DNA from: a virus
Virus record (IMG/VR): IMGVR_UViG_3300034073_002611
Location: 1-28,140 of that record
Strand: one strand, 5' to 3'
DNA: 28,140 nt
The first letter of the stretch is position 1; every line of letters starts with the position of its first letter. The notes beneath the pieces were generated by a model, which saw only the letters and a list, made by a program, of their open reading frames with translations, searched no databases and was not told where the DNA came from. Shown piece by piece: positions 7,326 through 20,651 of the stretch. Both the position numbers and the translations under genes were made by a program.

Positions 7326-7392
7326 GACCGACCTCTTTTTGTGTAATTTATTATTATAAAGCTGCGTTTCTTTGTATTCAGGTTTATTTTTT

Positions 7393-8040
7393 ATGGACAA
7401 ATTTTTTATTTTTTCTTTTCCTAGATCTGGTTTACATTTATTTTCTAGAATTTTAGGCTTAAATTTGTATGTTAATTTTGATGCAATGTCCAATGAGGGT
7501 CATGTCATCAACAAGATACAAAATTATCAACACAAGGAAACCTTATTTACTCATCAAACATTAAGTATGATGTCAACCAATTTATTTGATTATATCAGAA
7601 ATAATACTAAACCAATATTCCTGTACAGAGATCCCAAAGATAGTCTAATCAGTTGGTTTTTTTTAAGCAACAAAAACACACCTCCTAATATTTCTAATAT
7701 CAAAAGTTTTTTGCGTTCTAGCTTTAAGCATTTTCCTAATAGGTTGTTATTGTGGAAATATCACGTATTAGAATATCAGCAATATATTATAGACAATAAC
7801 TATTTGGTTATAAGATATGAAAATTTAGTACAGAATTTTAGTGAAACAAAAACAATGGTTGAAAATTATTTAAACACCACCATTCTTTTGGATTCTATTC
7901 CACCGCTTAAACAAGTAGATATGAGTAGAAAAGGAATTATTGGTGATCATCTTAATTATTTTGATAATGACACAATTAATGAAATAAATAGCGTATGTGA
8001 AAAAGAAATTAAGTTCATAGATAATTATCTAATATCCTAA
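7393..8040 (+). CDS. Sulfotransferase-like protein (PAPS-dependent family)
   Basis: A 215-residue protein with the hallmarks of the P-loop sulfotransferase fold. FIFSFPRSGLHLFSR at 5-19 is the 5'-phosphosulfate-binding loop (usual SFPRSGT). PIFLYRDPKDSLISW at 74-88 is the 3'-phosphate-binding motif (R79, S87). SRKGIIGDHLNYF near residue 190 matches the RKGxxGDxxxxF motif. It would transfer sulfate from PAPS to an unknown acceptor, perhaps a glycan or surface molecule. It is shorter than typical cytosolic enzymes (about 290). It is one of only three plus-strand genes and converges on the kinase-like gene with a 4-bp overlap. The start was placed at the ATG rather than the TTG at 7372. It is AT-rich, which may indicate recent acquisition. 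Confidence 0.82.
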   Translation: MDKFFIFSFPRSGLHLFSRILGLNLYVNFDAMSNEGHVINKIQNYQHKETLFTHQTLSMMSTNLFDYIRNNTKPIFLYRDPKDSLISWFFLSNKNTPPNISNIKSFLRSSFKHFPNRLLLWKYHVLEYQQYIIDNNYLVIRYENLVQNFSETKTMVENYLNTTILLDSIPPLKQVDMSRKGIIGDHLNYFDNDTINEINSVCEKEIKFIDNYLIS

Positions 8041-9252: not shown

Positions 9253-9711
9253 ATGAATAAAAAACATCATTATACCGAAAAAAACCTGTCTAAAATTTGT
9301 TCAGAATCTTTTAGTTACAGTCAATGTTTACAAAAAATGGGAATAGTTCCTGCTGGTGGAAATTATGCTATATTAAAAAAATACATCAAACTTTACAATA
9401 TTGATATTTCTCATTTTACTTTACAGGCTTGGAATAGAGGTAAAACTCTGCCGCCAAAACGATCTTTAGAAGATTATCTCTCAAATAAAAAAGCCATTCA
9501 AAGCTATAAACTAAAAAAGAGACTCTTAAAAGAAAAAGTATTTCAGCATCAATGCAATAATTGTTGTAAAAATACTTGGTTAGGAAAACCAATTCCACTA
9601 GAACTACATCATTTAGACGGCAATAGTTTGAATAATAATTTAAATAACCTTTCTTTGCTTTGTCCCAATTGTCATGCTTTAACCGATAATTATAGAGCAA
9701 AAAATAAATAG
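9253..9711 (+). CDS. Free-standing HNH homing-type endonuclease
   Basis: A 152-residue protein. The N-terminal 60 residues look like a DNA-binding region (CLQKMGIVPAGGNYAILKKYI helix-turn type). The HNH nuclease occupies about 98-145: C101-N-N-C104, then LELHHLDGNSLNNNLNNLSLLCPNCH with H119/H120, the Asn of the NNLSLL turn, and C137/C140 plus H141. Zinc-ribbon HNH enzymes of this kind act as mobile homing endonucleases in phages. GGAGG lies 6 nt before the ATG. The stop overlaps the 3' end of the intron-containing tRNA gene by 3 bp on the opposite strand, which suggests a link to intron mobility. Confidence 0.85.
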   Translation: MNKKHHYTEKNLSKICSESFSYSQCLQKMGIVPAGGNYAILKKYIKLYNIDISHFTLQAWNRGKTLPPKRSLEDYLSNKKAIQSYKLKKRLLKEKVFQHQCNNCCKNTWLGKPIPLELHHLDGNSLNNNLNNLSLLCPNCHALTDNYRAKNK

Positions 9712-9988
9712 GAGCAGAGGGAATCGAACCCTCACTGTATGGATTTTCGTACCACTATAGTTTTCACTACCATTGCTGTTTGTGGTCTGGACTTTACCTT
9801 AACCATAGTTATTTAAACTTTAGGTTCCTGCCGTCAAGTCTCTACACCTTCATATTTAATATGCTTGGCTCGGTATTAGCATTTTAAAGCCTTCACCGAA
9901 TTTGACAGGTTCTACTTAAAAAGTTTCCTTTCTAGCACTCAATTTAACGAAAAAAGTCCATTGCCTCTGCCTGTTGGGCTATGCTCCC
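9709..9988 (-). tRNA. tRNA split by a group I intron; predicted anticodon UAA (Leu)
   Basis: Exon 1 (9988-9954) gives acceptor GGGAGCA, UA at positions 8-9, a D-arm with the GG pair, and anticodon stem AUGGA followed by CUU. Exon 2 (9747-9709) gives AAAA, stem UCCAU, a 5-nt variable loop ACAGU, T-arm GAGGG-UUCGAUU-CCCUC, acceptor UGCUCCU (one G-U pair) and discriminator A. CCA is not encoded. Joining at the intron borders yields loop CUUAAAA, anticodon UAA, for leucine. The short class-I variable loop is unusual for bacterial tRNA-Leu. If the borders are off by two bases the loop could read CUUUUAA (UUU, Lys), but then the intron would not end in G. Confidence 0.85.
9748..9953 (-). other. Group I intron, 206 nt, in the tRNA anticodon loop
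   Basis: The intron core elements are readable on the minus strand. UUCGGUGAAGGC (9900-9889) matches element P, AAUACCGAGCCAAGC (9877-9863) matches Q, GUAGAGACUUGACGG (9845-9831) matches R, and AAAGUCCAGACCAC (9795-9782) matches S; GACUU of R pairs with AAGUC of S as P7. Exon-1 ACUU can pair with intron GAGU so that the splice-site U forms the required U-G wobble, and the intron ends in G. The insertion point, after U34 of a UAA anticodon, is the same as in the well-known cyanobacterial and plastid tRNA-Leu introns. It contains no open frame; the neighbouring HNH gene may supply mobility. Confidence 0.88.
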
Positions 9989-10080: not shown

Positions 10081-10365
10081 TTATGAGTTAGAATGAGCGG
10101 CCTTAAGGCGTCGAACAGTCTCAGCCATAGCCTCGACATTATCTACCGTCTTTGTTGGCTTGGCACGTTCCATAGCAGGAAGTTCCTCGCCTTTCTGAGC
10201 CAGAGCGGCCTTAGTACGGGCATAACGAGCCATAGTACTGGCAATCTTTTGACCAGTCTTAGCAGCAATCTCTGCATATGTTCTACTAGAAAATACCGCC
10301 TCCAAAAACTGCTCATCAGAACAACGAACTCTCTTCTGCTTTTCAGTAGCAATTACATCTGCCAT
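10081..10365 (-). CDS. Small helix-turn-helix-like protein
   Basis: A 94-residue basic protein. Residues 15-50 (DEQFLEAVFSSRTYAEIAAKTG, then a second helix ASTMARYARTKAALAQKG) look like a helix-turn-helix of the kind seen in sigma-like or terminase-small-subunit-like DNA binders, so a regulatory role is possible. The ATG at 10365 has GGAGGT upstream. It is transcribed from its own promoter at 10443-10471 with a leader of about 70 nt. Base composition is noticeably more GC-rich than most neighbours. Downstream (9989-10080) I see nothing recognisable before the tRNA. Confidence 0.7.
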   Translation of the reverse strand: MADVIATEKQKRVRCSDEQFLEAVFSSRTYAEIAAKTGQKIASTMARYARTKAALAQKGEELPAMERAKPTKTVDNVEAMAETVRRLKAAHSNS

Positions 10366-10442
10366 AATATCAACCTCCAAACTAAACCAAACTTGTAAAC
10401 AGGCTCAGTCGAGCGACCGATTACTAACCCGCTTACTCCTTT

Positions 10443-15429: not shown

Positions 15430-15438
15430 AAATACACC
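15430..15438 (-). promoter_or_regulatory. GGTGTATTT intergenic motif, copy 3 of 3
   Basis: Minus strand AATAGGTGTATTTATCTC, 28 nt before the start at 15402 and overlapping the last base of the endonuclease VII stop codon. A small hairpin and the ribosome site follow. Confidence 0.45.
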
Positions 15439-15779
15439 TATTGTCTATTTTTAGACATTATCAAATAGTTAACCGCTTTAATTAGTCCATCAAGATTATC
15501 TCCTAGTTTGCCTAGCCCAGTATTACACGGCTCACACAGCCAGCCGCGAAAACTATCATTAGCATGATCATGGTCTAAGCACCATTTATGGGGAATTTTT
15601 CCACAACACTCACAAGTTTCTGGTCTTGGTGGCGCTACTTTATGTAAGTGGCTTCTAATTTTGGAATGTTTTTTAACGCACTTTCTACATCTACTATCTA
15701 GATTATCTTTGTACATACTGTGTTTAGGAAAACTTTTTGGGTTTTTTCTTTTGCCACAATATGTACAAATTTTTCTCAT
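15438..15779 (-). CDS. Recombination endonuclease VII (Holliday junction resolvase)
   Basis: A 113-residue protein. The zinc knuckles are C5/C8 with C31/C34, and C56/C58-59 with C82/C85. CLDHDHANDSFRGWLCEPCNTGLGKLGDN contains the D-H-D-H active site (69-72) and the RGWLCxxCNxGLGxxGDN signature of endonuclease VII (T4 gp49 family). It cuts branched DNA to resolve recombination junctions before packaging. T4 gp49 is longer (157), so this is the minimal nuclease without the dimer extension. It starts only 7 nt after the 3' end of tmRNA and has no ribosome site, so translation may depend on tmRNA processing. Confidence 0.88.
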   Translation of the reverse strand: MRKICTYCGKRKNPKSFPKHSMYKDNLDSRCRKCVKKHSKIRSHLHKVAPPRPETCECCGKIPHKWCLDHDHANDSFRGWLCEPCNTGLGKLGDNLDGLIKAVNYLIMSKNRQ

Positions 15780-15786
15780 ATAATAT

Positions 15787-16140
15787 TGGAGGCGGGGGAA
15801 GTCGAATCCCCGTCTTGCGATATTGCTAATTACATATTCTACAAGTTTATTTTGTTCATAAAATTTTAAGAAAAGTTAAAGAACAAACAACATTTACTTT
15901 TCCGTACCAACTAATCTCAGGCTAGAACCCGTTGGCTATCCTAGCAGCCGAAGGATTTTACGACAATCTTTTGAACGCTACCTTCATCGCTTTCTAAGAT
16001 TGTTGCTGCTATTTATTAAGCAGCAAGGGCTAACTGATTTGTGCCAGTTAAAGCATTTAGTAGACTTTTAAAGTGGCCCGTCCACCAACCACTACTTGCT
16101 AACATAATCTTCTATATCCAATCGATACCTTTACGCCCCC
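15787..16140 (-). ncRNA. ssrA: Transfer-messenger RNA (tmRNA)
   Basis: A complete tmRNA of 354 nt on the minus strand. The 5' GGGGGCG and 3' CGCCTCC pair as a 7-bp acceptor stem with one G-U, and the T-arm is GGGGA-TTCGACT-TCCCC. The discriminator is A and CCA is not encoded. The tag frame reads ALTGTNQLALAA if the resume codon is GCU, then UAA UAA. The LALAA end is the usual degradation signal recognised by ClpXP/ClpAP. The stops lie in the loop of the helix TGCTGC/GCAGCA, as in bacterial tmRNA, followed by a long pseudoknot region. It would rescue stalled ribosomes and tag incomplete proteins with a phage-specific tag. The exact resume codon is not certain. Confidence 0.93.
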
Positions 16141-19985: not shown

Positions 19986-20651
19986 ATGAAAAAGTGCCAT
20001 CAGTGTTTATTAGAAAAAGAAGATCACGAATTCCGTCCAAGAAGATGCAATCAATGTAAAGTTTGTGAAAAACAATGGAAAAAAGAATGGTATAACAAGA
20101 ATAAACAAAAAATATCTTCTCAAAGAAAATTATATCAAGAAAAAAATAAAGAAAAAATTAAAGAAACTAAGAAAAAATATTACTTAAACAATAAGGAATA
20201 TATAGACAAAAAAAACGCAATACATAGATCAAAAAATAGAGAATATCTAAATAAAAAATCTAATGAATATTATTATGCTCATAAACAAGAAATCAATCAA
20301 AAAAGACGTCATTATTTATGTAACAATATTCAAGCAAAAATAAAACATAATTTGAGAACAAGAATAAATTTGGTATTGAGAGGCAAAATAAAATCTGGAT
20401 CTACTATTGATTTATTGGGGTGCGACATTACATTTTTTACTAAATATATAGAAAGCAAATTCTTGGTTGGTATGAATTGGAACAATCATACTAGAAATGG
20501 TTGGCATATAGATCACATTAAACCTTGTGCCAGTTTTGATTTAACTGATCCAGAACAACAAAAACAATGTTTTCATTATACTAATTTGCAGCCATTGTGG
20601 GCTGCTGATAACATCCGAAAGTCGGATAAAGTTCTTGATAATGAGCAATAG
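19986..20651 (+). CDS. HNH endonuclease with long basic linker
   Basis: A 221-residue, Lys/Asn/Tyr-rich protein. CHQC at 4-7 and CNQCKVC at 21-27 form an N-terminal zinc finger. Residues 28-115 are a repetitive basic helix (KKEWYNKNKQKISSQRK-type repeats), probably lying along DNA. The C-terminus has WHIDHIKPCASFDLTDPEQQ, followed by NLQPLWAADNIRKSDK, the HNH core with the terminal N. It is a mobile free-standing endonuclease. AGGAG lies upstream. Its last 71 bp overlap the 3' end of uvdE on the other strand. The base composition is more AT-rich than its neighbours, fitting recent insertion. Confidence 0.85.
   Translation: MKKCHQCLLEKEDHEFRPRRCNQCKVCEKQWKKEWYNKNKQKISSQRKLYQEKNKEKIKETKKKYYLNNKEYIDKKNAIHRSKNREYLNKKSNEYYYAHKQEINQKRRHYLCNNIQAKIKHNLRTRINLVLRGKIKSGSTIDLLGCDITFFTKYIESKFLVGMNWNNHTRNGWHIDHIKPCASFDLTDPEQQKQCFHYTNLQPLWAADNIRKSDKVLDNEQ

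Follow-up and report, generated by a model that had tools for sequence, protein, structure and literature searches.

The locus at positions 9,253 to 9,988 raises the question of why a free-standing HNH endonuclease gene abuts a phage tRNA gene that is itself split by a group I intron, and whether the intron and the nuclease move as a pair. In the window, by which we mean the whole stretch of 28,140 nucleotides that was analysed (IMG/VR virus record IMGVR_UViG_3300034073_002611), the locus consists of the following features:

9988-9709 (-): split tRNA-Leu(UAA) gene (ARAGORN on the spliced form, with the borders read from the sequence)
9954..9988 (-): 5' exon of tRNA-Leu(UAA), comprising the acceptor 5' strand, D arm, anticodon stem 5' strand, C32, U33 and U34 (sequence; ARAGORN on the spliced form)
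9748..9953 (-): ORF-less group I intron of 206 nt between U34 and A35 (RF00028; covariation among 35 relatives; borders from the sequence)
9709..9747 (-): 3' exon of tRNA-Leu(UAA), A35 to A73, with a short variable arm and no encoded CCA (sequence; ARAGORN on the spliced form)
9253..9711 (+): gene of a free-standing HNH endonuclease of 152 aa; it converges on the tRNA gene, and its stop codon lies over tRNA nucleotides 71-73 (PHROG 10822; AlphaFold)
9601..9675 (+): HNH motif region ELHHxDG...NNxLxNLxLLCPNCH, residues 117-141 (invariant residues among relatives)

ARAGORN detects no tRNA-Leu gene in the unspliced sequence, and it reads the spliced sequence as tRNA-Leu(taa) with an intact cloverleaf when the 5' exon ends at 9954 (U34), the intron runs from 9953 to 9748 and the 3' exon starts at 9747. 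The sequence-only reading had claimed a group I intron of 206 nt without an open frame in a phage tRNA, and an HNH endonuclease gene overlapping that tRNA by 3 bp. All of this was borne out: the borders give 206 nt, the intron interior contains no ORF that reaches 50 aa, the intron scores above the gathering score of RF00028, the HNH product matches PHROG 10822 with its motif conserved, and the HNH stop codon TAG (9709-9711) overlaps the last 3 nt of the tRNA. What goes beyond that reading is the identity of the tRNA as a Leu(UAA) with a short variable arm, and the insertion point between U34 and A35, which we take to be the insertion site of the classic bacterial and plastid tRNA-Leu(UAA) intron. 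Short-arm tRNAs like that of the window are labelled tRNA-Leu in cyanophages and Enterococcus phages, and at least one case in an Enterococcus phage has the anticodon TAG. A stop-suppressor tRNA was considered and rejected, the spliced anticodon being UAA, which reads UUA. Elsewhere in the window, positions 7372-8040 (+) encode a sulfotransferase-domain protein (PF00685, E 1.3e-15).

The match to RF00028 in Rfam covers 9963-9767 (-) and scores 61.7 bits (E 1.4e-13), where the gathering score is 50. P1 is formed by ACUU and GAGU with a U.G pair at the 5' splice site, and the last intron base is G; in a covariation alignment of 35 diverse virus introns plus their exons, the U.G splice-site pair is present in 35 of 35 and G stands directly before the 3' exon. 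RNAalifold supports 48 pairs in this alignment, 34 of them with compensatory changes. When P1, P3 and P7 are written out, 97.7% of the cells are paired and two-sided changes occur in 35 of the 54 pairs, while in the chance controls none of 500 shuffles was as good and slid partners were only 28-42% paired. Across the same introns P3, P8 and P9 covary, and P4 and P7 are paired, P4 being near-invariant and P7 never varying. Both the RF00028 score and the covariation place a group I core, P3-P9 with the P3/P7 pseudoknot, in the intron, and P5 is a short hairpin lacking the P5a-d extensions, as in subgroup IC3 (PMC11835236), a likeness judged from P5 alone. Moreover, the spliced sequence reads as tRNA-Leu(taa) in ARAGORN for 138 of 147 distinct introns at the U34/A35 site, a figure for which the exon search itself demanded a matching anticodon stem. 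The conserved ribozyme structure suggests that the window intron splices out and that the tRNA-Leu(UAA) is usable.

The HNH product matches PHROG 10822 with E 1.6e-43, its matches to the Pfam HNH models are all below cut-off, and a fold search of PDB gave weak HNH matches only, the best being EcoKMcrA (E 0.05). The reading frame is open and keeps the conserved motif residues, of which E117, H120, N132, C137, N139 and H141 are invariant among 17-18 relatives; the AlphaFold model (mean pLDDT 86.6) has a helical N-terminal part and an HNH part. Among relatives gathered from viral contigs by protein sequence alone, most of those above 50% identity adjoin or lie within tRNA-Leu(UAA) genes, in three layouts: some converge on the tRNA 3' end like the window gene, some lie antisense within an intron of 670-810 nt, and some lie in sense orientation within the intron. 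The HNH tree places the window gene in a supported clade of 23 (support 95), all convergent at tRNA-Leu, and nearest to this clade are antisense intron-internal genes. A 49%-identical HNH lies inside the tRNA-Leu intron of the 595-kb phage record LR756511, and in bacterial records a relative lies inside a tRNA intron in antisense (L282, L301) or in sense (L367). The genome labels of L301, L282 and L367 are Acidobacteriota, Gammaproteobacteria and another bacterium, respectively. Because HNH relatives adjoin or occupy the same intron in dozens of viruses and some bacteria, intron and nuclease together have the look of a mobile element that was active recently. Distant relatives adjoin other tRNAs. 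In L163 the HNH gene is frameshifted and full of stops beside an intron-bearing tRNA-Leu, that is, a decaying nuclease with a persisting intron. The window also holds a phage tmRNA gene at 15784-16140 (-) (RF00023, E 9.1e-45; tag NALTGTNQLALAA), immediately followed on its 3' side by a gene of the Endonuclease VII family (PF02945) at 15438-15779 (-), a second case in which a nuclease gene adjoins the gene of a structural RNA. Among the few plus-strand genes of the window, 19986-20651 (+) has no Pfam match, and its Cys-rich start and WHIDHIKP-type motif suggest an HNH-like nuclease.

The occupied and empty states of the site were compared at syntenic loci, which were collected via a neighbour of the tRNA gene irrespective of intron or HNH:

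10081..10380 (-): conserved neighbour gene with a 99-aa product, possibly HTH, the synteny anchor outside the element (209 relatives in viral contigs; weak PHROG match)

After removal of copies the set comprises 84 loci (158 before removal, of which 13 were classed by eye from partial sequence). The intron is present in 38 of them (HNH present in 9, absent in 21, unknown in 8) and absent from 46 (HNH present in 3, absent in 40, unknown in 3), so that related phages show the intron with HNH, the intron without HNH, the empty site and HNH without the intron. Since the convergent HNH is absent from 21 of the 30 intron-bearing loci with enough sequence, the pairing is optional. On the neighbour-gene tree, which has 282 columns and in which recombination may contribute to the count, intron status needs 23 changes, little fewer than the mean of 28 among shuffles, and strong branches force at least nine of them. 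RF00028 matches at most twice, usually once, in nine contigs of about 200-244 kb with syntenic relatives, and gives no match in three contigs in which tRNA-Leu is intronless.

The intron-bearing loci share one anticodon-stem sequence, the two halves of which make up the proposed homing target:

9954..9959 (-): GGACTT, the left half of the homing target proposed here (38/38 intron-bearing versus 29/46 intronless syntenic loci)
9741..9747 (-): AAAATCC, the right half of that target (same counts as the left half)

For the whole stem this difference has p 7e-6. The guide sequence of the intron pairs with ACUU only, and P1 therefore probably does not explain the stem preference, although Leu(UAA) tRNAs commonly have G30-A31. 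In the clade of the window's HNH, 18 of the 23 distinct HNH genes stand beside an intron-split GGACTT/AAAATCC, and the five others beside intronless tRNAs with altered stems (CAAAACTT twice, AGGCACTT, ATCGACTT and GCAGACTT/AAAATTTGC); an HNH gene beside an uninterrupted GGACTTAAAATCC occurs in none of the 23. The standard stem is found in 18/18 clade members with HNH and intron versus 0/5 with HNH and no intron (p 3e-5, uncorrected for kinship, as the independent contrasts on the HNH tree, two well supported and four on all branches, are too few for a kinship-corrected test), and among intronless tRNAs in 0/5 clade members with HNH versus 27/40 syntenic loci without HNH (p 0.007). Altered stems occur without HNH in 13 of these 40 loci and therefore need not be responses to the nuclease. 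One of the five HNH genes at intronless tRNAs (L263) carries C140R in a Cys conserved among the other aligned HNHs, and at L197 a standard intronless target is accompanied by an HNH reduced to a 21-aa relic. A family-wide rule that HNH occurs only with a protected target was rejected: outside the window's clade, L433, L165/L166 and L444/L446/L475 are intronless, yet the target next to their HNH relative is intact or nearly so, and the protection rule is therefore not family-wide.

A homing nuclease must spare its own genome. An ORF-less intron with an adjacent free-standing nuclease is the layout of a collaborative homing pair, which the sequence-only reading had guessed from that layout; the guess is now backed by the co-travel of HNH and intron, by the empty sites and by a clade without HNH at the uninterrupted standard target. 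We regard it as well supported by these sequence comparisons that the phage intron and the HNH are probably such a pair. The intron would leave the precursor RNA, and the phage would thereby retain a usable tRNA-Leu(UAA), while the HNH enzyme would cut, in phages infecting the same cell, the tRNA-Leu genes that no intron interrupts; the cut would fall within or close to GGACTT^AAAATCC in the anticodon stem. Repair of the break from an intron-bearing genome would then copy the intron and, in many cases, the tRNA-intron-HNH block as a whole. Since the intron splits the target, it would protect the phage's own genome, and genomes with HNH and no intron may be protected by the changed anticodon-stem pairs with which they correlate.

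The alternative that survives best is that the free-standing HNH is a homing nuclease whose target lies elsewhere, for example at the tRNA 3' end or in the intergenic flank, and that the intron is a passenger of co-conversion. The HNH gene does abut the 3' end of the tRNA, some 40 nt away from where the 3' exon begins, 5 of the 23 clade genes have no intron beside them, and the distant relatives stand beside other tRNAs; however, a target elsewhere predicts neither that HNH with an intronless GGACTTAAAATCC should be absent from the clade nor that close relatives should lie inside the same intron, including those of the bacterial L282 and L301. We consider this alternative unlikely, though worth keeping in view.

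Less probable still is that no active homing takes place and that tRNA-Leu cassettes with or without the intron are shuffled by ordinary phage recombination, the HNH being inherited along. Such cassettes are seen. L519 and L516 are 100% identical across 1602 bp upstream and 99.4% identical across 1398 bp downstream, and between these flanks L519 has an ~800-bp tRNA-intron-HNH block, with a type II tRNA-Leu carrying the intron, in place of the ~90-bp short-arm intronless tRNA of L516. A short-arm tRNA-Leu is here replaced by a long-arm type with intron and HNH, and the tRNA type therefore changes by cassette exchange. L239 versus L236 is a second whole-block exchange. Both are recent exchanges in which intron and nuclease move together; a nuclease cut may have started them and homing may be their cause, and ordinary recombination could be an alternative source. 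The many intron-bearing loci without HNH likewise fit passive shuffling. On the other hand, the intronless relatives that the sequence-only reading had advised looking for include precise empty sites. L222 and L224 differ by the presence and absence of exactly the 202-nt intron in the same tRNA, bar single substitutions, with flanks 97% and 93% identical, and L274 and L269 form a second pair whose tRNA genes are the same but for the precise intron and a few substitutions. Passive shuffling does not readily account for such pairs, for the restriction of the intron to one stem allele (38/38) or for the recurrence of HNH relatives within the same intron, and we judge it improbable. That the tRNA or intron has decayed, with splicing lost and the locus a relic, is hardly credible: in its favour, the short variable arm is unusual for a leucine tRNA and the HNH is broken in one relative (L163), but the core helices are intact and covary, the spliced cloverleaf is intact, and the window HNH has an open frame with conserved motif residues.

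With the collaborative homing pair as the preferred reading, the mechanism is an ordinary one in an unexpected place, a phage tRNA-Leu(UAA), with unusually complete natural states. As to origin, a genome scan showed that Methylobacterium, Sphingomonas, Xanthobacter, Nitrospirae and Acidobacteria, among others, have related introns, located in tRNA-Leu(UAA) and in other tRNA genes. In the intron tree, which is weakened because letter make-up differs between the groups, 61 virus introns lie on one side of a branch with support 97 and 12 other virus introns group with bacteria; thus, the host and phage pools have exchanged introns or share deep ancestry. Close relatives of the window's intron core also lie in capsid genes of the small phages L005 (Pelagibacter phage HTVC120P) and L007 (KM23-C739, with RF00028 twice), so that the same lineage is present in protein genes as well, and an annotated 286-nt tRNA-Arg of Microcoleus phage My-WqHQDG (L004, 2313-2598) holds a related intron at a different anticodon-loop site. 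The cultured Agrobacterium phage Atu_ph07 likewise carries a relative of the intron. A broader and quite speculative proposal is that phages might be a mobile reservoir of a tRNA-Leu(UAA) intron that has long been regarded as old and immobile, spread among phages and into bacterial chromosomes by an HNH gene drive at the anticodon stem from which phages escape by compensatory stem changes, with one nuclease family showing the states of the proposed route: alone, beside the intron and inside the intron. Phages widely carry an apparently mobile form of this intron, and among them occupied and empty sites are near-identical; the origin of the intron, its mobility and the path from nuclease to mobile intron are therefore directly testable. 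A further suggestion is that a tRNA stem can carry natural alleles that resist a gene drive.

A 2014 review stated that the phage introns known by then were all in protein-coding genes despite the many phage tRNA genes (PMC3984707). The split phage tRNA claimed as the first in 2017 is a tRNA-Stop with an insert of ~2.5 kb, for which an artefact was conceded as possible (PMC5746245), and the main text of the huge-phage paper does not mention introns (PMC7162821). We found no report of this intron-HNH element in the open-access literature, and megablast of the window against named phages gave no relative. The earlier view that group I introns are uncommon in phage tRNA genes thus stands for the literature consulted (PMC3984707; PMC5746245) and fails for metagenomic phages, in which this intron is common.

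Several known systems resemble parts of this locus. The endonuclease of the bacterial tRNA-fMet intron presumably belongs to a nuclease family other than that of the window's HNH. As it is cited in PMC3984707 (Bonocora and Shub 2001), it also differs in being bacterial, in its tRNA and in lying inside the intron. The introns that proteobacteria and other bacteria carry in their tRNA-Leu(UAA) and tRNA-Arg genes are related in sequence, and those in tRNA-Leu(UAA) occupy the same site; unlike the virus introns, they are chromosomal and GC-rich, whereas most virus introns form the group of 61 described above. The cellular and plastid tRNA-Leu(UAA) intron shares the gene and the short P5, but it belongs to cells and plastids and in plastids is described as immobile (PMC5733544), whereas that of the window belongs to phages and has an HNH partner; our intron tree was built from sequences other than cyanobacterial ones. 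T4 SegB is likewise a free-standing phage nuclease driving the inheritance of a tRNA region (PMC2988022), but of the GIY-YIG type and with no intron. In ICP1-type systems the nuclease gene is also adjacent to, not within, the intron-split gene, but the genes are protein-coding and the ICP1 nuclease is of the T5orf172 type. The cyanophage S-PM2 psbA intron with F-CphI, a case of collaborative homing as defined in PMC6083498 in which the intron prevents self-cleavage, is likewise an ORF-less group I intron adjoining a free-standing nuclease; its host gene is psbA instead of a tRNA, F-CphI has an Endo VII motif, and cleavage was shown for S-PM2, whereas it is predicted for the HNH of the window.
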